This document shows, in pieces, positions 1 to 45,782 of a DNA stretch of 46,012 bases. A program made the position numbers and the translations under genes. The stretch is taken from assembly GCA_022712895.1 (NCBI GenBank), contig JAFLJS010000016.1, forward strand, positions 1 through 46,012, written 5' to 3'. Every line of letters starts with the position of its first letter. Positions within the stretch are counted from its first letter, which is position 1. Source of the DNA: Desulfocapsa sp. Lineage in GTDB: Bacteria > Desulfobacterota > Desulfobulbia > Desulfobulbales > Desulfocapsaceae. The notes under the pieces were generated by a model. The model ran no database searches. It saw nothing but the letters and a program-made list of their open reading frames with translations, and was not told where the DNA came from.

Positions 1-804
1 AACGTCCCTGCGATTTTAAGTGTATTGCGCAACCCTCGTTCTCCACAGTTCAAGGTAACACCTAAAGACACCAATCTGGCCGAGGACTCGGTGAGCCCGC
101 TGGTAACACCATTTTATATAATGCTTGGCCTTTTTTCCGTAATGTACCCGGTTGCTTTTTTTCGAGCCGTCAGTAATCCGCAGTTACTTGGTTCCATTGT
201 AATCTGTACTGTCTGGGGTACCTTTAATCTCCTTCTTTTGCTACTCTGTCTCGGCGTGGTGTGGGAAAGACGGCAGATCAGGAAAAAATATCGTATGCCC
301 GTAAAAGAGCCGATTCTCATAAGAGTTCAAAATGCTGAAGACAACAACTGGTTGAACGGTTTGGCCACAGACCTTTCGGAAGAAGGTATGGGAATTATTC
401 TGGATGGAAAGACATCACTAACCGAACAAACAATAATAGAAATCAAGACGGAAAATAGTGCCGGAAGACGTTTTCTTTTTACCGCTGAGATTGTCAGGAT
501 AATGAAACACAAGGACGGGGTCCAGCTGGGTTGTCAGTATCAGTTCGAAGATGAAGAAAGTTTTCTTGCCATTACCAACTATCTATATGGTGAAAGTGAC
601 AGATGGGAAAAGTTATGGAAAGGACGTCAGCATAAGGTACCCATTATTGCCGGTTTTATTTTTGTGCTCAAACTTGGTTTTACAGGAACGTATCACCATT
701 TTAGAGGATTAACTCAAATCTATTGGAAAAAAATACATATATATCAGGAGAAGATATGGAGCAGATTTGCTGCAAAAAAGACAAAACGTTCTGGTTGTTC
801 CTAG
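1..804 (+). CDS. bcsA: Cellulose synthase catalytic subunit BcsA, C-terminal part (5' end outside window)
   Basis: The frame is open from base 1, so this is the last 267 codons of a longer gene whose glycosyltransferase domain lies upstream. Visible are the conserved segment RNPRSPQFKVTPK that follows the catalytic domain in BcsA, a pair of membrane helices (about residues 30-85 of the fragment), then a PilZ domain with the arginine motif RRQIRKKYR and the DLSEEG (D/NxSxxG) motif, which in this family bind cyclic-di-GMP and release autoinhibition. The protein polymerises UDP-glucose to beta-1,4-glucan at the inner membrane with BcsB. The stop (802-804) lies inside bcsB, which starts 49 bases earlier, so the two are probably translationally coupled. 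Identity is secure from the domain order and the bcsB-bcsZ-bcsC genes that follow. Confidence 0.93.
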   Translation, partial: NVPAILSVLRNPRSPQFKVTPKDTNLAEDSVSPLVTPFYIMLGLFSVMYPVAFFRAVSNPQLLGSIVICTVWGTFNLLLLLLCLGVVWERRQIRKKYRMPVKEPILIRVQNAEDNNWLNGLATDLSEEGMGIILDGKTSLTEQTIIEIKTENSAGRRFLFTAEIVRIMKHKDGVQLGCQYQFEDEESFLAITNYLYGESDRWEKLWKGRQHKVPIIAGFIFVLKLGFTGTYHHFRGLTQIYWKKIHIYQEKIWSRFAAKKTKRSGCS

Positions 805-2996
805 TAACTGGAAGCCTTTTGTGTGTCCTGCTGTTTGGGACGGTTCCCGCATATTGCCAGGAGCCGCTCAGGCTTCCATTAACCAAGTTCAATGCACCGG
901 GAATTGTTACACTTAACGATACAGAAGACACTTACAGCCTGAAGATTCCGACACCAAGACGCTGGCAGATAGAGAGTGCAACTTTGCAGCTTGCTTACGT
1001 CAACTCAACGGCTCTTTTACCCAGCCGTTCTCGTCTGGTCATCATGTTTAATGACTATCCTCTGGCCCAGGTAACTCTTGAACCCGGAGCGCCTGAAGGG
1101 CTTGTTACCGTAGCCATCCCTGCCCGTCTCTTTAAAGTTGGGTATAACGACTTGCAAATTCAAGTCGTACAGGCTTTTAAGGATGAAGGCTGTATTCCCT
1201 TGAATCCACCAGAGGTCTGGACAACTCTTAAGTTTATTGATTCCACTCTTCAATTTTCTTTTACTCAAAAAGAAGTCCCTCTGAGTCTGGCTTCCGTCGC
1301 AGATTTTCTCTTTGACCCAAAAATGAGTGGAGATAACCACGTCCATATTGTGACAGAGACCATGGACAATACGGATGTATACCTTGCGGCAGTGACTGCT
1401 GCTGCCGTTGCTCAGCGCTTTGATTATCGTCCGGTACAGTTCTCAACCGGGCAGGAGTTGTTGCCGGGGAAAGACAATATCGTTATCGGCAGACGTTCAT
1501 TCCTCCAGGAGGTTACAGGAGCTGATGATGTGCAGGGCGACCTGGGGATATTCCCCATGCCAGGGAAGAATGGTACTCCTGATCGCTTTCATGGCCTGAT
1601 CTATCTTGGGGGGGATGGGAAAGAGGAAATTTTGCAAAGTGTCACCGCGTTTTCTGTTCTTTCTCTGCCATTGCCAAATCGGCAGTTTTGTCAGATCACC
1701 GAGGTTCAGTTGCCACTTATCTCTCCCTATTCAGGTAAAAATCGCCTGGCACCCGAGAAACGATATACCTTTCAAGAGCTTGGACTTACAACAGCAACAT
1801 TTCGAGGAATTCAAAGCAGTCCACAATCAATCCAATTTACCCTGCCTACCAGTTTCTTACTGGAGGGCAATCGAGATATTCTTCTCCGCCTGAACTTTTC
1901 CTATGCAGCAGCCATGCGTGAGGATTCTGTACTCTCTCTGGAGGTAAATGGAAAGTTCGTTGCATCCATACCTCTTAATTCGCCATCCGGCGGGCAATAT
2001 CAGGGCTATACCATCCGTCTCCCTCTCAGCTATTTCACCCCTGGCCGTAATGTGCTTCAGCTTAGCGCCATCATGACACCGCTGCAGACAACAGCCTGTG
2101 AGACACCGCAAACCGATCATCTGGCACTAACCCTCTTTGAGAGCTCAACAGTTCAGGTTCCCAAGCTGTTACGGTGGGTCAAGCTGCCACAGCTCAGTTA
2201 TCTCTTTAATGATGGGTTCCCTCTCACTGCTGCACCGGATTTCTCACAGACCGCCTTAGTATTACCACAAAGAGATCGAAAAATTTTAACAGCAGCACTC
2301 CATCTTATTGCAGGAATAAGCCAAGAAACCGGTGTACTCCCCTATGGGTTAGCAGTTACCGACACGGCGTCAGAAACTGAAGATAAAAATCTTCTTGTGA
2401 TTGGCTCTCGGGCCGATTTACCTGAAAAAATTATGCACGCGTCCCCACTGGCAAAGAACATTTCAATGCCTGTCCATGGCAGGCTGCCCGGAACTCTGCG
2501 TATTGAAGACTGGAAGGACAAACTGTGGCAAATTCTGTTTGATGACGTGACAGAACTTGCCCCTGTCACACCTGACATTGCCTCTCTGGGAACTGACATT
2601 CGATTCCGACCGCAACAGGCTGTCCTCTGTGAGTTTGAATCACCATTTAGTCCCATGAAGACAGTGGTACTGTTGTCCGCTGAAACCGCAGAAGATGTGC
2701 TTCAGGCCTCCTTACTTCTACAGGAAGACGAAGTGACTCAGCAATGTCGTGACGGCTTTGTTGTCATTAACTTTGATGGAAGAAAACCTGTTGTGCAAAC
2801 GGCTGCCCTGAGTTCATCCTATTCCGTGGGTGAGATAACATCACGTAACCGAATAAGTTATCTGATAGATACATACCGCTGGCTCTTTATTGGTCTTCTT
2901 ACCGGCCTGCTGGTCTTTATCTCCCTGGGCTTGACAATCCTTTTAAAAAGACGGCGTAACAGGCGACTGCAAGCAATGGTTGGGGATAACGAATAA
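756..2996 (+). CDS. bcsB: Cellulose synthase periplasmic subunit BcsB
   Basis: About 746 residues, the usual length for BcsB. I chose the ATG at 756 because AGGAG sits a few bases upstream (746-750) and it gives a clean signal peptide (FWLFLVTGSLLCVLLFGTVP then AYCQ); an in-frame TTG at 723 is possible but less likely. The long periplasmic part is of the BcsB type (alternating carbohydrate-binding-like and ferredoxin-like domains) and it ends in one membrane anchor, WLFIGLLTGLLVFISLGLTI, followed by a basic cytoplasmic tail. BcsB guides the nascent glucan through the periplasm and activates BcsA. Its stop overlaps the bcsZ start by one base (TAATG), so the genes are co-translated. Confidence 0.92.
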   Translation: MEQICCKKDKTFWLFLVTGSLLCVLLFGTVPAYCQEPLRLPLTKFNAPGIVTLNDTEDTYSLKIPTPRRWQIESATLQLAYVNSTALLPSRSRLVIMFNDYPLAQVTLEPGAPEGLVTVAIPARLFKVGYNDLQIQVVQAFKDEGCIPLNPPEVWTTLKFIDSTLQFSFTQKEVPLSLASVADFLFDPKMSGDNHVHIVTETMDNTDVYLAAVTAAAVAQRFDYRPVQFSTGQELLPGKDNIVIGRRSFLQEVTGADDVQGDLGIFPMPGKNGTPDRFHGLIYLGGDGKEEILQSVTAFSVLSLPLPNRQFCQITEVQLPLISPYSGKNRLAPEKRYTFQELGLTTATFRGIQSSPQSIQFTLPTSFLLEGNRDILLRLNFSYAAAMREDSVLSLEVNGKFVASIPLNSPSGGQYQGYTIRLPLSYFTPGRNVLQLSAIMTPLQTTACETPQTDHLALTLFESSTVQVPKLLRWVKLPQLSYLFNDGFPLTAAPDFSQTALVLPQRDRKILTAALHLIAGISQETGVLPYGLAVTDTASETEDKNLLVIGSRADLPEKIMHASPLAKNISMPVHGRLPGTLRIEDWKDKLWQILFDDVTELAPVTPDIASLGTDIRFRPQQAVLCEFESPFSPMKTVVLLSAETAEDVLQASLLLQEDEVTQQCRDGFVVINFDGRKPVVQTAALSSSYSVGEITSRNRISYLIDTYRWLFIGLLTGLLVFISLGLTILLKRRRNRRLQAMVGDNE

Positions 2997-4045
2997 TGCT
3001 TAATTCCCGGTTCATTGCCTTTCTATCCATATTTCTTCTTTCTTGCTGCCTGCCTGTGAGCGCTTCTGCCACTGAACCTGGTACGTGGCCCGGCTTTAAA
3101 GAAGAATTTATCACTTCTGATGGACGGGTAATCGATCACAGTCAACAGGGAATCAGTCATTCCGAAGGACAGGGCTACAGTATGTTGTTAGCTGTGGCTT
3201 TTGGAGATCTGGAAACATTCTCCCTGCTTTGGCAATGGACAAAAAATCATCTCCAGGTCAGAAAAACGGATTCTCTCAGCGTCTGGAGCTATGGTGAATT
3301 ACCCAATGGTGTCGTGGCACCCATTGATTTTAACAACGCCACAGATGGAGATATCTGTATAGCATGGGCCCTTTTTCTGGCCAGGGAGCGATGGAACCTG
3401 CCGGGGCTCGAAGATGAAGCGCGAAAGATAATGGCAAGTATCCAGCGCTATCTATTGCTGGAAAAATTTGGGAAGACGACCCTTCTTCCCGGCTATTATG
3501 GATTTACACAACGAGATGCGATGATTATCAACCCATCGTATCTGGTCTTACCAGCCTTCAAGGTATTTGGCCGCTATGGTGATTGGATACTATGGCAACG
3601 AGTCTATAATGAGAGCCTATCGTTATTGTCAGAAAATTCCTTTGGCCGTTGGCAACTCCCGGCAGATTGGTTTCTTGTGAATAAGGATAGCGTCACCATT
3701 CTTGCCGATAAACCACCCTTATTTGGCTACGAGGCCATCCGGGTGTTTTTATGGGCATTCTGGGATGAATCTCTTGCTAAACTTTCCGGGGCAGAAATGT
3801 TGCTCAACCTGATCGAATCCAGTGGCAGCCTGCCGGTAACAATTAATTTAAATGACGACAGCCTCAATGAGCAGGAGGCTCCCGCCGGGTTTATTGCTAT
3901 TGCTGCAAACTGTGCGCAGCAATTGGACAGAAGACAACAGGCGGAAAAATTATGGCTTCACGCTGAAAAGAAGATTCAGGTGGAGGAAAAAAACTATTAT
4001 TCGCAGGTCTTGTACCTTCTGGCTCGTTCTCGGAGAATTCAATGA
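2996..4045 (+). CDS. bcsZ: Endo-1,4-beta-glucanase of the cellulose operon, GH8 family (BcsZ)
   Basis: 349 residues with an N-terminal signal peptide (cleavage near VSASA-TEPG). Glycoside hydrolase family 8 features are plain: SEGQGYSM at about residues 56-63, containing the likely acid catalyst Glu57, and NATDGD at 114-119 followed by IAWAL. BcsZ is a periplasmic cellulase that trims glucan during export and is typically encoded between bcsB and bcsC, as here. ATG at 2996 shares its A with the bcsB stop, and the TGA overlaps the next ATG (ATGA, 4042-4045), indicating translational coupling on both sides. No key residue appears missing. Confidence 0.93.
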   Translation: MLNSRFIAFLSIFLLSCCLPVSASATEPGTWPGFKEEFITSDGRVIDHSQQGISHSEGQGYSMLLAVAFGDLETFSLLWQWTKNHLQVRKTDSLSVWSYGELPNGVVAPIDFNNATDGDICIAWALFLARERWNLPGLEDEARKIMASIQRYLLLEKFGKTTLLPGYYGFTQRDAMIINPSYLVLPAFKVFGRYGDWILWQRVYNESLSLLSENSFGRWQLPADWFLVNKDSVTILADKPPLFGYEAIRVFLWAFWDESLAKLSGAEMLLNLIESSGSLPVTINLNDDSLNEQEAPAGFIAIAANCAQQLDRRQQAEKLWLHAEKKIQVEEKNYYSQVLYLLARSRRIQ

Positions 4046-6837
4046 GTCGCCCGACTGGATTCTTTCTTTGTATTGCAGGACTCTTCTTGATTTGCTTGCT
4101 GCCTGGTACGGGAAAAGCCCAGCCCGAACTATCCATGTCCGTGGAAAAAAAACAGAATCAGGCAACAGTTATTTATCAGAAAGAGCAGAAATCCATTTTA
4201 AAATCAAAAGATAGATCTGTGGTTAAAGAACCCCAGGAGCAAAAGCAGACCGGGGTATCCAGATCACCACAACTGTTTCTCCAGGAATTGCCGCAACCTG
4301 AAATAAAAGAGCCGGAAAAAGCCTCTATAGATCCATTTGCAACTATTCTTGCCTATGGTTGGCAAGAATATGGTCTGGAGAATTATAGCCAGTCGAAGGT
4401 GTTTTTTTTACAAGCAGTGGCCTCGAAAAATGCTACAAATCGCCGTAATGCCAAGTATGGACTGATGTATAGCTACCTCAAACTTGATGACACGATTGCA
4501 GCCCTGCCCCTGCTGCAAGACTTTGTTGCCCAGGGAGAACAGCTTGAATCAACAGCCCCGGTATTGGCTGCAATCCTTTTTGAACGAGGAGACATTGACG
4601 CTCTTCAGCTATTACTTCCCAAACTCTCCCCAACACAACAAAAAGAGTGGCGAGAACAAATTGTTTTTTCTCAATTTCAGCAGGACATCGCTGCAATAAA
4701 TAAAAAGAGTAAACGAGAGGCAATCAATGATTTTCTTCAGCAATACAAATTAATCCTTGAAGAATGCCAGCAGCCGGAGCAGTTTTTTCGGGTGGCTTCT
4801 TTTCTTGAGGCAAATAGTCCTGATTTGGCAAAGAAAATTTTTGCAGACTTGAGTCGATGCCTATTGGACGATCAGCATTGGCAGGAGCGGGTTTTACGTG
4901 AACAGTTACGTTTAATGAATAAGAAAGAACTACTCGCGATAGCAATAAATCCCTCTGATGGGAAAATATCAGAACCTGCCTGGAAAAGCTTGCTTCAGGA
5001 TACCCTTTGGCAGATGCTGGATCAACTTGAGCCACAAGATCCCGAATATGATACTTTTGTTCAAGTACTCTATGAGCAAAATCCCAGTAACCACGAAGTA
5101 GCTTCAATGGCAGCTTGGTCCTGTTATCAACGAGGGGAATATAGCTGCGCCAGGGATATCTTTTCTGCCTTGGTGCAGGGCAATCCTACGGATGATGCAC
5201 TGCTTGGTCTTGGATACGCTCTGCAAAAACAAGGTGCGTTAACTGAAGCACTTGCCCTCCTGGATCAGCATCCAAACAAGGAGGGCAAGCTCTTTAATCA
5301 ACTGCGCCACGATCTCCATGCAACTCGTGGCGGGGTCCTCTATGCAAATAAAAGCTACCAAGAAGCCATTGTACATCTAGAGCAGGCATTGCTGTATCAG
5401 CCAGAAGATGTGGATCTTACAAAGATGCTCCTCTGGAGTCGTTATCACCTGGGAGAGACTGAGCCGTTAGTGGAATTTCTCTGGCAGCAATATCAGGAGA
5501 AGGGGGCAAGTGATGATGCAAAGTTATTGTCAAATTTACTCGGGACACTAGACGACCCAATTTTTACCAGAGAGGTGATCAAGGCTTTTGCTGAATCTGA
5601 AACGGCAGAGATACAGAAGATTGCTGGTGATTATACTTTTCAACAGAATCATCCGATACTAGCTGACCAGATCTACCAGGGGCCAAGCCCATATGCCGGC
5701 AGTGCTGCTCCTGCATTCGATACCATGTTTCATTTTCGTAACAAGGGTGGAGATGATGGTACCTCCAGCTTGCGTGTGGCAACGCTTATTGTACGACAAA
5801 AGTTTTCCAGTGATTCTGGAAAAACATGGGCGATTTCTATTTACCCCCTATCTCTTGATTCCGGTCTCCTGGGCGCTGGTGTCCCTGTTGGAAGTGCGTA
5901 TCGTTCACCCGATGAATCGCCGTTGCTGTCGGGACTGTGGGAAGAAGAGATTCTTGCCTGGGGCTGGCGTGGCACCTTGCAAATTGAGGGAAACCTTGAC
6001 TGGGATATTGGGATCGGCAGCACACCTATAAATGGAGTGGTAAATCCGACTCCTGTTGGAAAAATACAAGGCCGTGGATCTGATTGGTTTATTGCTGTAG
6101 AACGTGACTCAGTCAAAGAATCCATACTTTCATGGCTTGGCCAAACAGATCCATACAGTGGACGTAAATGGGGAAGAATAGTAGAAACAAATCTGAGTGG
6201 ATCTAAAACAATTTCCTTCAGTGACTGGTGGCTTAGCATTGAAGGAAAGTATGGCTGGTATGATGGGGAGAGTGTAGAGCAAAATAGTTCCCTGACAGCA
6301 TCGGTCAGTGGCGGATACACTACGAACTGGAAGGATTTCGAACGATCAACCGGACTCTTTCTCTTTGCTCGTGGATTTGAGCGCAATTCCAACTTTTACA
6401 CCTTTGGCCATGGCGGCTATTACAGCCCTGCACAACAAATTATTGCCGGACCGTTTTTTCGTTTAGCAACATCAAAAGCGACTGATTATTGGTTGGAGGC
6501 CTCCTGTTCTGCTGGTCTTAATTATCGTAAAACAGACGAGGCACCCCACTACACTGAGCTGGGGACTGTCGAAATAGGACCTGAAGATCCAGGCTGGCAG
6601 GATCTACTCGGGACATACCCAGGAGAAAGTGAAACCGGACTGGGGCTGGACGCACGGCTTCGTGGTATTCTACCGCTTTCCAGAGGATGGTTTGTTGGCG
6701 GAGAAGCATCCATTAATAATGTCGCAGATTATACTCAGTGGCAGATGGCTGTTACTCTTCGTTACCGTTTTGGTAAAGGGATGGGGCTTGGTTTACCGGA
6801 TAAGGATTTTTCAATGTTAACGGATCTAACTCAATGA
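4042..6837 (+). CDS. bcsC: Cellulose export outer-membrane protein BcsC (TPR plus barrel)
   Basis: 931 residues. A signal peptide (about 1-26) is followed by a polar linker, a long helical TPR region (about residues 100-560, with recognisable repeats such as the stretch around ALLYQPEDVDLTKMLLWSRY), and a C-terminal BcsC-type domain from about residue 565 that ends as a porin-like barrel (LRYRFGKG near the end). The segments RGSDWFIAVERDSVKESIL, LGQTDPYSGRKWGR and TFGHGGYYSPAQQI are typical of the BcsC C-terminus. It forms the outer-membrane exit pore for cellulose, the TPR part scaffolding the periplasmic path. It is shorter than the roughly 1150-residue enterobacterial form, mainly through fewer TPRs. 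The ATG overlaps the bcsZ stop and its TGA overlaps the next gene's ATG (6834-6837). Confidence 0.92.
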   Translation: MSRPTGFFLCIAGLFLICLLPGTGKAQPELSMSVEKKQNQATVIYQKEQKSILKSKDRSVVKEPQEQKQTGVSRSPQLFLQELPQPEIKEPEKASIDPFATILAYGWQEYGLENYSQSKVFFLQAVASKNATNRRNAKYGLMYSYLKLDDTIAALPLLQDFVAQGEQLESTAPVLAAILFERGDIDALQLLLPKLSPTQQKEWREQIVFSQFQQDIAAINKKSKREAINDFLQQYKLILEECQQPEQFFRVASFLEANSPDLAKKIFADLSRCLLDDQHWQERVLREQLRLMNKKELLAIAINPSDGKISEPAWKSLLQDTLWQMLDQLEPQDPEYDTFVQVLYEQNPSNHEVASMAAWSCYQRGEYSCARDIFSALVQGNPTDDALLGLGYALQKQGALTEALALLDQHPNKEGKLFNQLRHDLHATRGGVLYANKSYQEAIVHLEQALLYQPEDVDLTKMLLWSRYHLGETEPLVEFLWQQYQEKGASDDAKLLSNLLGTLDDPIFTREVIKAFAESETAEIQKIAGDYTFQQNHPILADQIYQGPSPYAGSAAPAFDTMFHFRNKGGDDGTSSLRVATLIVRQKFSSDSGKTWAISIYPLSLDSGLLGAGVPVGSAYRSPDESPLLSGLWEEEILAWGWRGTLQIEGNLDWDIGIGSTPINGVVNPTPVGKIQGRGSDWFIAVERDSVKESILSWLGQTDPYSGRKWGRIVETNLSGSKTISFSDWWLSIEGKYGWYDGESVEQNSSLTASVSGGYTTNWKDFERSTGLFLFARGFERNSNFYTFGHGGYYSPAQQIIAGPFFRLATSKATDYWLEASCSAGLNYRKTDEAPHYTELGTVEIGPEDPGWQDLLGTYPGESETGLGLDARLRGILPLSRGWFVGGEASINNVADYTQWQMAVTLRYRFGKGMGLGLPDKDFSMLTDLTQ

Positions 6838-43314: not shown

Positions 43315-43479
43315 AGTTCTTGGGTAACGGTTGCTTGTAACATTAACACGGTGATATAAGGGAATATCAGTATTCTCTTTGATACCGAGCAGGATCATAA
43401 TTACAAAACGTCCATTAGATATTTTTCTGATTCGTTAAAATAGCTTACCTAGGGCACAACTCGATTGGAGAAGGAGCAA

Positions 43480-44091
43480 ATGAAAAAGCTTACACAGCGA
43501 CCTTTCATGTCTTTTCTCATTAATTTTTTACTCATACTGGCTTTATTGGCAATTCCTGCCAGTGGGGTTGCAAAAGAAGCATCCTTTAAGCTCTCCATGC
43601 CTACAGAATTCATCCCTGCCATGGATAAAGATGGCTCCCCTCAATACATAACTGCTGAGCAAATAGAAAAGACTTTGCAACACCATAGCAAGGGGTTCAA
43701 AAAGTTATATTGGAATAAAACAATTAAACATTTCATACTCACTCGCCATGGATGGCTGAAGGAACTCTTAGCAGTCTACAACATCATGCTTAACGACATT
43801 AACGTACACGCCAAGGCAGATGTCTGGGATTGCGAAAATTTCAGCTCATTTTTAAACGCACTTGCTACCGTAAGAATCTGGAAATCGGGATATTACGATA
43901 CACGTGGTGCCATAGGTTGGATGCGGGTAGATGCGAAAAAAGAATGGGCCGGACTACCTCCGGTAATGCATGCTCTGGTCTTCGCCGTGACAGAATATGG
44001 CCTACTTGTTATCGAACCGCAAAATGGCCAAATCGTAGAGCTTAAAGACTACCCGAACAAAGAATTCATACAGGAGGCATTTTTATTTTGA
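43480..44091 (+). CDS. Secreted protein with a putative Cys-His hydrolase fold
   Basis: About 203 residues from ATG 43480, which has AAGGAG 5 bases upstream; a TTG at 43465 is less likely. Signal peptide (SFLINFLLILALLAIPASGVA). A possible catalytic core resembles transglutaminase-like or papain-like enzymes: WDCENFSSFLNAL (Cys in a helix start), then PVMHALVFAVTEYGLLVIEP (His on one strand, Glu on the next). The order Cys, His, acid fits that fold, but no family name is certain. Likely periplasmic. The stop overlaps the next gene's start (TTGA), and that gene is a diverged homologue. Confidence 0.7.
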   Translation: MKKLTQRPFMSFLINFLLILALLAIPASGVAKEASFKLSMPTEFIPAMDKDGSPQYITAEQIEKTLQHHSKGFKKLYWNKTIKHFILTRHGWLKELLAVYNIMLNDINVHAKADVWDCENFSSFLNALATVRIWKSGYYDTRGAIGWMRVDAKKEWAGLPPVMHALVFAVTEYGLLVIEPQNGQIVELKDYPNKEFIQEAFLF

Positions 44092-44693
44092 AACATCCCT
44101 TCACAATAAAAAAGATCTGCATCAACCTCTCTGTCCTTATCGTCTTTTTTGGCTATACCGAATCTCATGCTGCTGATACGATGTTCTTACAAAAAGCCCC
44201 ACCCCCAGAGATTATAGCCGTAAGCGGTAAGGCTAAACTCCTTTATGGAAATTTTATCAGGAAACAATTACAAAAAAGATTTCCGACCTTAAAAACCATA
44301 GTTGTTGGCGATAAGCGCTATATGTTTATCACAGAGAAATGGTTTAAAGGTGTCATTGACTGGACAGAATACTTTATCACACAGCAGGTTCCTGAGATCC
44401 ATCAGCTGGAAAATCTGCCCCTCGCATATGAGGCAACATTCACGATGTTGATGTCCAATATAGCCAATATTGCAGTGTCCAAACGCTATAGTGTTAATGG
44501 CTCCGTCTTAATCGGATTAATGGTGGCAAAAAGTGAAAAACCATGGGGAGCAATCCAGGCAGACGGAAAACCTCGTCAATATGTCATTGGACTAACAGAA
44601 AATGGTTCCATGATTTACCATATCCCCACCCGACAAATCTCTACTGGAAAGGATTTCCCTAATAAAGACCATACGTCCGGGATTATTTTTTGA
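44088..44693 (+). CDS. Secreted paralogue of the preceding gene with substituted putative active site
   Basis: 201 residues. TTG start at 44088, with AGGAGG (44072-44077) ten bases upstream, overlapping the previous stop. Signal peptide (INLSVLIVFFGYTESHA). It aligns with the preceding protein over the C-terminal 90 residues: both have an aromatic-rich helix, then a strand TEYG in the first and TENG in the second, then NGQIVELKDYPNKE versus TRQISTGKDFPNKD. In this alignment the putative Cys becomes Glu (YEATF for DCENF), the His becomes Arg and the Glu becomes His. I infer a pseudoenzyme partner. No assigned function. Confidence 0.68.
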   Translation: MKHPFTIKKICINLSVLIVFFGYTESHAADTMFLQKAPPPEIIAVSGKAKLLYGNFIRKQLQKRFPTLKTIVVGDKRYMFITEKWFKGVIDWTEYFITQQVPEIHQLENLPLAYEATFTMLMSNIANIAVSKRYSVNGSVLIGLMVAKSEKPWGAIQADGKPRQYVIGLTENGSMIYHIPTRQISTGKDFPNKDHTSGIIF

Positions 44694-44744: not shown

Positions 44745-45782
44745 CTATTTGGCCAGGTCCCCTCTCAATCCTCTTAGCATCTGTATCACGGTAACAACAT
44801 CAGCATCAAGATCAAAGCCATTAAGGGTCAGGTAAGAAATTTCCTGATTCTTTCGTTTATCAAGACCTCGGTTGTAATAATAATCGTAGTAACCAAGCAG
44901 GATCTTGCAAGCACTGGCAAAATCATCATTTTCAATAAATGTGGTCACTTCCTGCAGTTTAGGTTGGGTCAGTTTTTGGGCAATTCGCTGACAAGCCTCA
45001 ATAAGTTGTTGTCGATCTGTACTTGTGTACTCTCTTACCAACCGATCAATTCGTGCCTGCAATGGTATATCAATAATCAACAGGGGTGCAGCCCGCATCT
45101 GCTGCAGCAAAGGTGGTGGAAGATGCACCGATCCGATAACATAACTTTCGTTTTCTAGAAGCAGCAGCTCTTCAGGGTTGATCAGTCGCAATTCTTCGCA
45201 AAAAACATTTTCAAACTGTTCAGTGCTGGGTTGTTCTTTTTCGTTAATATGCCCGAAAACTGATCCTTTGTGATGTGCCAATCCCTCAAGATCAATAATC
45301 TGCACTTTCCGTTCTTTAAGGGCGAGCAGTAGATCGGTTTTACCACTGCCGGTTTTGCCACCTACCATCAATAATTTCAGGGGCCTTTCAATAAAACTTC
45401 TGATTTCCCTCCGATACTCCTTGTATCCCCCCTGAATACGTCTGGCTGCTGTTCCAGATTCATTTACCAGACGACACACTTCTGTGCTGCGTTTCCCGCC
45501 ACGCCAGCAGTAGATGACAAGCTTTGCCGGGTGGAAACTTTTAATTTGAGCCAAAATTGCGTCTACTTTAGGACGTGCAATTTTCTCCCCCAGCTGCAAC
45601 GCCTGGGTTTTCCCCACCTGTTTATAGATGGTGCCAATTTCAGCTCGCTCTTCATCAGCAAACAGGGGGATATTCACGGCACCCGGGATATGGCCCTTAA
45701 CAAACTCAATGGGTGAACGAACATCAATGAACTGTACGCCATCGTCAGATGTGATTTCTGAAAAGCTTACAGAATAGGTCAC
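44745..45782 (-). CDS. mnmH: tRNA 2-selenouridine synthase MnmH (SelU, YbbB)
   Basis: 345 residues, ATG at 45782. N-terminal rhodanese domain (about 5-125) with VQFIDVRSPIEFVKGHIPGA and the active-site loop YCWRGGKRS (Cys92); then a P-loop domain with GGKTGSGKTDLLLAL (about 141-155), LIDLEGLAHHKGSVFG, and a C-terminal helical part with GYYDYYYNRGL. This is the full MnmH architecture: it replaces sulfur by selenium in the wobble 2-thiouridine of tRNAs via a geranylated intermediate. It implies that the host makes selenophosphate. Stands alone, convergent with the secreted pair. Confidence 0.95.
   Translation of the reverse strand: MTYSVSFSEITSDDGVQFIDVRSPIEFVKGHIPGAVNIPLFADEERAEIGTIYKQVGKTQALQLGEKIARPKVDAILAQIKSFHPAKLVIYCWRGGKRSTEVCRLVNESGTAARRIQGGYKEYRREIRSFIERPLKLLMVGGKTGSGKTDLLLALKERKVQIIDLEGLAHHKGSVFGHINEKEQPSTEQFENVFCEELRLINPEELLLLENESYVIGSVHLPPPLLQQMRAAPLLIIDIPLQARIDRLVREYTSTDRQQLIEACQRIAQKLTQPKLQEVTTFIENDDFASACKILLGYYDYYYNRGLDKRKNQEISYLTLNGFDLDADVVTVIQMLRGLRGDLAK

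Follow-up and report, generated by a model that had tools for sequence, protein, structure and literature searches.

Two overlapping genes on a Desulfocapsa sp. contig raise the question of whether they encode an enzyme together with a catalytically dead copy of it, to which protein family the two products belong and whether these products act separately or as one enzyme. The window (i.e. the whole stretch of 46,012 nucleotides that was analysed) is an entire contig of a genome of 3.7 Mb.

An overlapping pair of exported-looking proteins

The original prediction placed the overlapping pair at 43480-44693. These coordinates are right, with the stop of the first gene (A) at 44091 and the TTG start of the second (B) at 44088, giving a 4-nt overlap, TTGA. 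MOA (Marasmius oreades agglutinin), a mushroom defence lectin with a protein-cutting half, is the protein to which residues of the pair are related in the following features.

43471..43476, + strand: Shine-Dalgarno-like AAGGAG of A (sequence, by eye)
43480..44091, + strand: gene A, 203 aa from an ATG start; predicted to encode an exported homologue of MOA-type papain-like cysteine proteases
43480..43572, + strand: putative signal peptide of A, residues 1-31 (translation; cleavage site by eye)
43831..43833, + strand: Cys118 codon of A, aligned to MOA Cys215 (sequence, alignment)
43969..43971, + strand: His164 codon of A, aligned to MOA His257 (sequence, alignment)
44014..44016, + strand: Glu179 codon of A in the EPQ motif, aligned to MOA Glu274, with Gln181 aligned to Gln276 (alignment)
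44072..44077, + strand: AGGAGG ahead of B, located within A's final codons; spacing of ten bases to the TTG in 6/6 loci
44088..44693, + strand: gene B, 201 aa from a TTG start and overlapping A by TTGA; predicted exported paralogue that lacks the catalytic residues
44088..44174, + strand: putative signal peptide of B, residues 1-29 (translation, by eye)
44310..44321, + strand: Asp75-Tyr78 of B, the D-x-x-Y hairpin corresponding to MOA Asp183-Tyr186 (motif counts, alignment)

Hydrophobic N-termini, judged by eye, were present on both proteins, which are exported-looking as had been proposed. A lipobox-like Cys was seen by eye in three of the six complete B proteins (G057, G030 and G455) and is absent from B of the window. 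The conserved C-terminus of A, I-Q/E-E-x-x-L-F (window 44069-44091), overlaps with B's AGGAGG and TTG in 6/6 loci, so that its conservation may be partly due to dual coding. A promoter scan gave one site versus a shuffled mean of 4.0.

A PnrA/BMP-type ABC transporter lies upstream of the pair in the window and a convergent rhodanese-domain gene downstream. The latter region (44745-45782, - strand) encodes a rhodanese plus P-loop protein that resembles a tRNA 2-selenouridine synthase by eye, with only the Rhodanese domain being matched. A cellulose-synthesis-like cluster occupies 1-6837 (+ strand) and contains genes for a PilZ-type synthase C-terminus, a BcsB-like protein, a GH8 protein and a BcsC-like protein, of which the GH8 protein is a Pfam hit and the others were named by eye.

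The pair is constant while its neighbours mostly vary

The distribution of the pair was examined with profiles of A and B. The A profile matched six of the 93 genomes of the family, in three of 18 genera, and the B profile matched seven, namely the six with A plus G463, where the end of the contig truncates B and leaves its A out of view. Among 395 genomes sampled from the phylum, the own genome was the sole match to the A profile. Constant co-occurrence of the pair in relatives, posed as a check by the original prediction, was borne out among the 93 family genomes: all six A loci have B directly after A, joined by the identical TTGA overlap, and AGGAGG precedes the start of B by ten bases.

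The BMP transporter adjoins the pair in the window and in G455. Elsewhere the neighbours are a Glucosaminidase-domain gene and, farther away, polysaccharide deacetylase and PgaA genes (G035), pgaA-like and pgaB-like genes (G057), nitroreductase-like and adenine-deaminase-like genes (G030, named by eye) and a MerR-like regulator (G453, named by eye). The neighbours therefore mostly vary between loci and the constant element is the A-B pair. Within G035, the Glucosaminidase-domain (Bax-like) gene stops 53 bases ahead of A (L014:4844-5875). Genes for pgaA and polysaccharide deacetylase occur near two of the six pair loci (G035 and G057; L012:1674-7191, and L014 with G035:C120:24561-25373). A link to poly-N-acetylglucosamine export was rejected, pgaA being nearby in 2/6 pair genomes versus 5/87 others (P = 0.06, not significant), and a PgaA match is absent from the window genome.

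Two complete predicted domains that fold independently would suit separate proteins that each form their own homodimer and are merely co-transcribed. Persistence of the pair although its neighbours mostly differ, the identical overlap in 6/6 loci and the complementary motifs described below argue against such an arrangement, which we regard as very improbable.

B is a paralogue of A that has lost the triad

A BLASTP comparison of A with B (a single comparison) produced an alignment of 201 columns with 21% identity and an E-value of 8e-6, and a comparison of the A and B profiles gave 97.4% with an E-value of 9e-12. Paralogy, originally proposed from a region of about 90 residues, is upheld and the alignment spans almost the full length. 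A and B share two segments that are absent from the MOA-type rows described below, namely a stretch at the N-terminus and a lengthened loop ahead of the His column.

In A, C118 falls within WDCENF, H164 within MHALVF and E179 within VIEP. These are the predicted triad places, the three residues aligning to MOA Cys215, His257 and Glu274, and spatial clustering of the three is inferred from the alignment to MOA and PSL1a. The replacements of Glu, Arg and His assigned to B of the window hold in one alignment, with the Cys column being alignment-dependent (Glu or a gap). Whatever the alignment, none of the B sequences has Cys in this column, which reads E, E, D and T in four aligned rows, a gap in two other alignments and, by eye, P in G453, K in G455 and D in G463. 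The His column holds Arg in 6/7 B sequences and Met in G455, while the Glu column holds His in the window and Asp in 6/7 (last three rows by eye for both columns).

Motif counts gave the same division of the three columns, which A retains and B lacks, as envisaged. The motif DC[DE][DN][FY] occurs in 5/5 A, 7/7 MOA-type rows and 0/7 B, the sixth A being left out of this count as N covers the motif, and EPQ occurs in 6/6 A, 7/7 MOA-type rows and 0/7 B. Among A proteins as divergent as 38% identity, the triad residues and EPQ do not vary. Paralogy and the pseudoenzyme status of B are well supported.

A tree of 18 rows put A and B each on one side of a branch (support 98/96 and 100/100), which fits a single duplication before the pair diversified. 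This tree carries long-branch warnings, has a weakly supported MOA-type group (77/62) and places neither the duplication relative to the MOA-type rows nor A as nearer to B or to these rows. The identities of A and B correlate (r = 0.91), as expected from shared descent, and dN/dS was unusable owing to saturation of synonymous sites in 22/25 pairs.

Both proteins have a predicted papain-like fold of the MOA/PSL1a type

AlphaFold models were obtained for A (pLDDT 88.2, pTM 0.85) and B (pLDDT 90.2, pTM 0.87). All Foldseek matches at E ≤ 0.001 were to MOA or PSL1a (10/10 for A and 7/7 for B). The best PDB match in VIA was likewise MOA/PSL1a, with Z 13.0 over 139 residues at 2.7 Å for A and Z 11.1 over 134 residues at 3.3 Å for B. 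LapG entries were the next best fold in VIA (Z 7.0 for A; 5.9 and 5.7 for B), at values below 8 that may reflect a common arrangement only. The alignment used for the A model included three phage MOA-type rows, and that for B held A and B rows only, such that the fold result for B is more independent than that for A. Structure prediction, suggested as a check that might yield unrelated folds, instead gave the same papain-like fold for both proteins.

Profile libraries were less informative. Neither A nor B is covered by a Pfam or NCBIfam model, and NCBIfam searches of relatives gave matches far under the cut-off only. Neither protein matched PF18021 up to E 10; the own genome was also without a match, and this model matches two of the 395 phylum genomes. 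Transglutaminase-core and NlpC/P60 families were rejected, with no Pfam profile match up to E 10 for A, B or relatives of A. The same applied to BTLCP (PF06035, Peptidase_C93), for which no match up to E 10 was found among the window proteins and A relatives; PF06035 is absent from the window genome, and the control was detected in Caulobacter. DUF7660 matched one of four A members at E 0.018, short of its cut-off, the best PHROGs E-value for A members was 0.068 and no better on further search, and PADLOC found nothing for A or B. Of the suggested transglutaminase/papain-like site, the papain-like part is consequently retained by predicted fold and the transglutaminase part finds no profile match. 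Similarly, the statement that no named family is recognised holds for Pfam and NCBIfam models, with the MOA/PSL1a papain-like family now named through the predicted folds; PF18021 and PF18022 are classed as papain-like in the text available of PMC10318531.

A was not filed as an Agglutinin_C member, as it lacks a profile match, the oxyanion aromatic and D-x-x-Y. This exclusion does not affect the model-based statement that A shares the fold and probably acts in the same manner. Relatives, triad columns and both predicted folds support the proposed enzyme and pseudoenzyme in a conserved, coupled pair, and A and B almost certainly have the MOA-type fold and form such a pair. In evolutionary terms, the A-B pair is a distant, divided and exported version of an MOA-type protease.

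Single-gene Agglutinin_C proteins of bacteria and phages

Sequence relatives were sought in genome and viral contigs. A genome-contig scan with the A profile retrieved three loci of its own kind plus two Lentzea proteins, which pass the Agglutinin_C cut-off (E 6e-18 and 1e-18) and one of which matches PSL1a and MOA in the PDB. Viral contigs gave zero matches to A's or B's own profile; once the Lentzea rows were added, one phage protein was found that passed the Agglutinin_C cut-off (E 5e-7). Searches by tblastn with A in phage and plasmid collections, and with the phage relative in the phage collection, gave no match. A five-row MOA-type profile of phage and Lentzea proteins matched the A profile at 97.7% (E 2e-12) and the B profile weakly (28.7%, E 6e-4). 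No MOA chain was found in a PDB search with the A profile alone, and the mixed profile retrieves the MOA chain largely by construction, so it served for residue numbering only. On the sequence comparisons, the bacterial and phage Agglutinin_C proteins bridge the gap between A and MOA.

The word IEPQNG served to retrieve the Lentzea rows and the first of the phage rows, which carry it, and agreement at this word therefore counts for less; later phage rows were retrieved with words of the first phage protein, DCDDF among these, and D-x-x-Y was absent from every search word. The seven MOA-type rows include two pairs of close relatives. The bacterial and phage Agglutinin_C proteins compared with the pair are two Lentzea (L015, L016), two Desulfobacterota (G212, G258) and three phage (L025, L027, L029) proteins. 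They combine DCDDF, H, EPQ and D-x-x-Y, having the catalytic motif and D-x-x-Y within one protein, unlike A and B, and no second copy was seen in the stretches listed.

G212 and G258 have a DUF5648 plus Agglutinin_C architecture (L050:919-1827 and L051:1447-2289, in two genomes of the Desulfobacterota phylum), in which DUF5648 is a different, sugar-binding-like front end to the same protease domain. One phage Agglutinin_C gene lies immediately ahead of a Pam3-type holin gene (L025:4971-5778), a position that hints at a role in lysis. When the A model was compared with viral models, the best matches were a Klosneuvirus protein, an unnamed protein and, third, an Agglutinin_C-domain protein of Pyrobaculum filamentous virus 1; as modelled, the MOA-type domain is scattered over very different viruses.

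A and B retain complementary parts of an MOA protomer

MOA is a homodimer, the papain-like L-domain of which borrows elements of the other protomer: S1-S3 sit on the dimer interface, and S2 and S3 are lined by the partner's Leu182 and loop Ile181-Gly184, according to the text available of both sources (PMC8244254, PMC4764322). The partner contacts named there are loop 181-184 and Leu182, and not Asp183 or Tyr186. In the mixed-profile alignment, the Asp of a D-x-x-Y falls on MOA residue 183. This motif was found at the hairpin in 7/7 B, 7/7 MOA-type rows and 0/5 A; other D-x-x-Y matches, in two A rows, one B row and the Lentzea, G212 and G258 rows, were not counted. At the hairpin place, A has N-x-x-I-x-x-F, which is two residues longer than B in some alignments. 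As aligned, B is more than an enzyme with its site lost, for it retains a partner-facing D-x-x-Y hairpin that is missing from A.

With the DC motif and EPQ only in A and the hairpin D-x-x-Y only in B, each paralogue keeps one part of an MOA protomer, and the simplest reading of this complementarity is a heterodimer with one active cleft. Duplication would have produced an enzyme half, A (Cys118-His164-Glu179, Gln181 and D-C-E/D), and a catalytically dead half, B, that pair like two MOA protomers as an obligate heterodimer. The single working cleft would comprise the triad of A and the D-x-x-Y hairpin of B, A would be inactive without B, and translational coupling would hold the two at similar amounts. 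A lipoprotein-like B would tether the enzyme to a membrane. By analogy with MOA, A and B quite likely bind each other, a heterodimeric protease in which A requires B has an even chance of being correct, and a composite site that includes the hairpin of B is put forward tentatively. The route from a homodimeric shared-cleft protease, through duplication and complementary loss, to an obligate heterodimer with one composite active site per dimer is possible and is offered with similar reserve.

Strict co-occurrence and coupling would suit any tight partner, and B might instead be a regulator (i.e. an inhibitor, chaperone or substrate adaptor) acting outside the active site, with A active alone or as a homodimer. 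Such a role is consistent with a fold devoid of catalytic residues and with the lipobox-like Cys of three of the six complete B proteins, but it leaves unexplained that the D-x-x-Y hairpin, which faces the partner's cleft in MOA, is kept in B and lost in A. A purely regulatory B is thus considered rather unlikely.

Chemistry of the predicted site

The heterodimer proposal predicts a protease, and the residues of A were compared with those of solved enzymes. MOA needs calcium or manganese, and its catalysis involves Cys215, His257, Glu274, Trp208 (oxyanion hole) and Gln276 (PMC8244254). A retains counterparts of Cys215, His257, Glu274 and Gln276 and has D-C-E/D. The aromatic seven residues ahead of Cys, Trp or Tyr in 7/7 MOA-type rows, is missing from A, which has Ala, Ala, Gly, Ser and Gly (5/5; all by eye). 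A also has DC[ED]N versus DCDD in the MOA-type rows, the second Asp being replaced by Asn. The oxyanion site tolerates change, as activity of MOA W208A is reported to be lost only in part (PMC8244254) and LapG is described as having a Tyr in the role of Trp208 (PMC4764322). By comparison with these enzymes, the oxyanion hole of A would have to be built otherwise, possibly with the help of B.

The D-C-E/D motif of A resembles the calcium motif of LapG-type proteases, and the putative protease site is probably calcium-dependent. Changes flanking the Cys (D316A/E318A) are reported to give an inactive form of DvhG, the calcium-dependent protease of a different sulfate reducer (PMC13090378). Proteolytic activity of A-B is thus inferred by analogy, the likely reaction being the calcium-dependent cutting of a protein in the periplasm or on the cell surface.

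Lack of the oxyanion aromatic could also accompany another kind of enzyme on the same fold, such as a peptidoglycan peptidase, deamidase or amide transferase, in line with the Glucosaminidase-domain gene right upstream in one of six loci (G035) and the phage relative that adjoins a holin gene. This neighbour is limited to a single locus, however, the solved relatives sharing the triad and EPQ are calcium-dependent proteases (PMC8244254), and the closest solved folds beyond MOA/PSL1a are LapG proteases, making a different chemistry improbable. The missing aromatic might also suggest that A, whose activity is predicted, is inactive like B and that the two serve in binding or as a structural module. 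Against this stand the unchanged triad and EPQ of A proteins, even at 38% identity, and the alignment of the conserved residues with catalytic residues of solved proteases, and we consider an inactive A extremely improbable.

Comparison with known systems and significance

The papain-like C-terminal domain of MOA and PSL1a (PF18021, PF18022) resembles A in predicted fold, in Cys-His-Glu and in the Gln two residues after Glu. MOA and PSL1a are fungal chimerolectins with a sugar-binding domain, encoded by one gene and homodimeric; A is accompanied by a dead paralogue, the DC motif and D-x-x-Y hairpin being divided between the two, and differs in being without the lectin domain, the -7 oxyanion aromatic, D-x-x-Y and a Pfam match. 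No match to a lectin family such as the beta-trefoil domain was found in A or B, each of about 200 aa. LapG and DvhG (BTLCP, Peptidase C93, PF06035) are exported calcium-dependent papain-like proteases, LapG entries gave the next best fold after MOA/PSL1a, and DvhG has D-C-E around its catalytic Cys, as in A, according to the text available of PMC13090378. They differ in having a C-H-D triad versus the C-H-E of A and in a lower Z (7.0), and PF06035 matches neither A nor B. CspC:CspA of Clostridioides difficile is a heterodimer with pseudoproteases that can be likened to the pair by description; in the available source text, both partners are called pseudoproteases and the context is spore germination (PMC12880746). 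No pair of the A-B kind was recognised in a literature search of open-access papers.

These results give a family to two proteins left unnamed by the Pfam, NCBIfam and PADLOC libraries. They also carry the MOA protease fold over to bacteria, in exported proteins whose evolution produced one enzyme and one dead twin. What is new, from the aligned sequences, is the apparent survival of the catalytic motif only in A and of the D-x-x-Y hairpin only in B. As A is protease-like and B is a dead twin keeping a part that A lost, the pair probably functions as a single enzyme. If the composite site is true, it would be a clean example from nature in which two genes split a shared active site, and the reason for MOA's protomer-shared cleft would become directly testable, with two halves that can be altered separately. 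The sulfur-cycling bacterium that hosts the pair would then possess a secreted relative of a mushroom defence protease, with one composite site per dimer.
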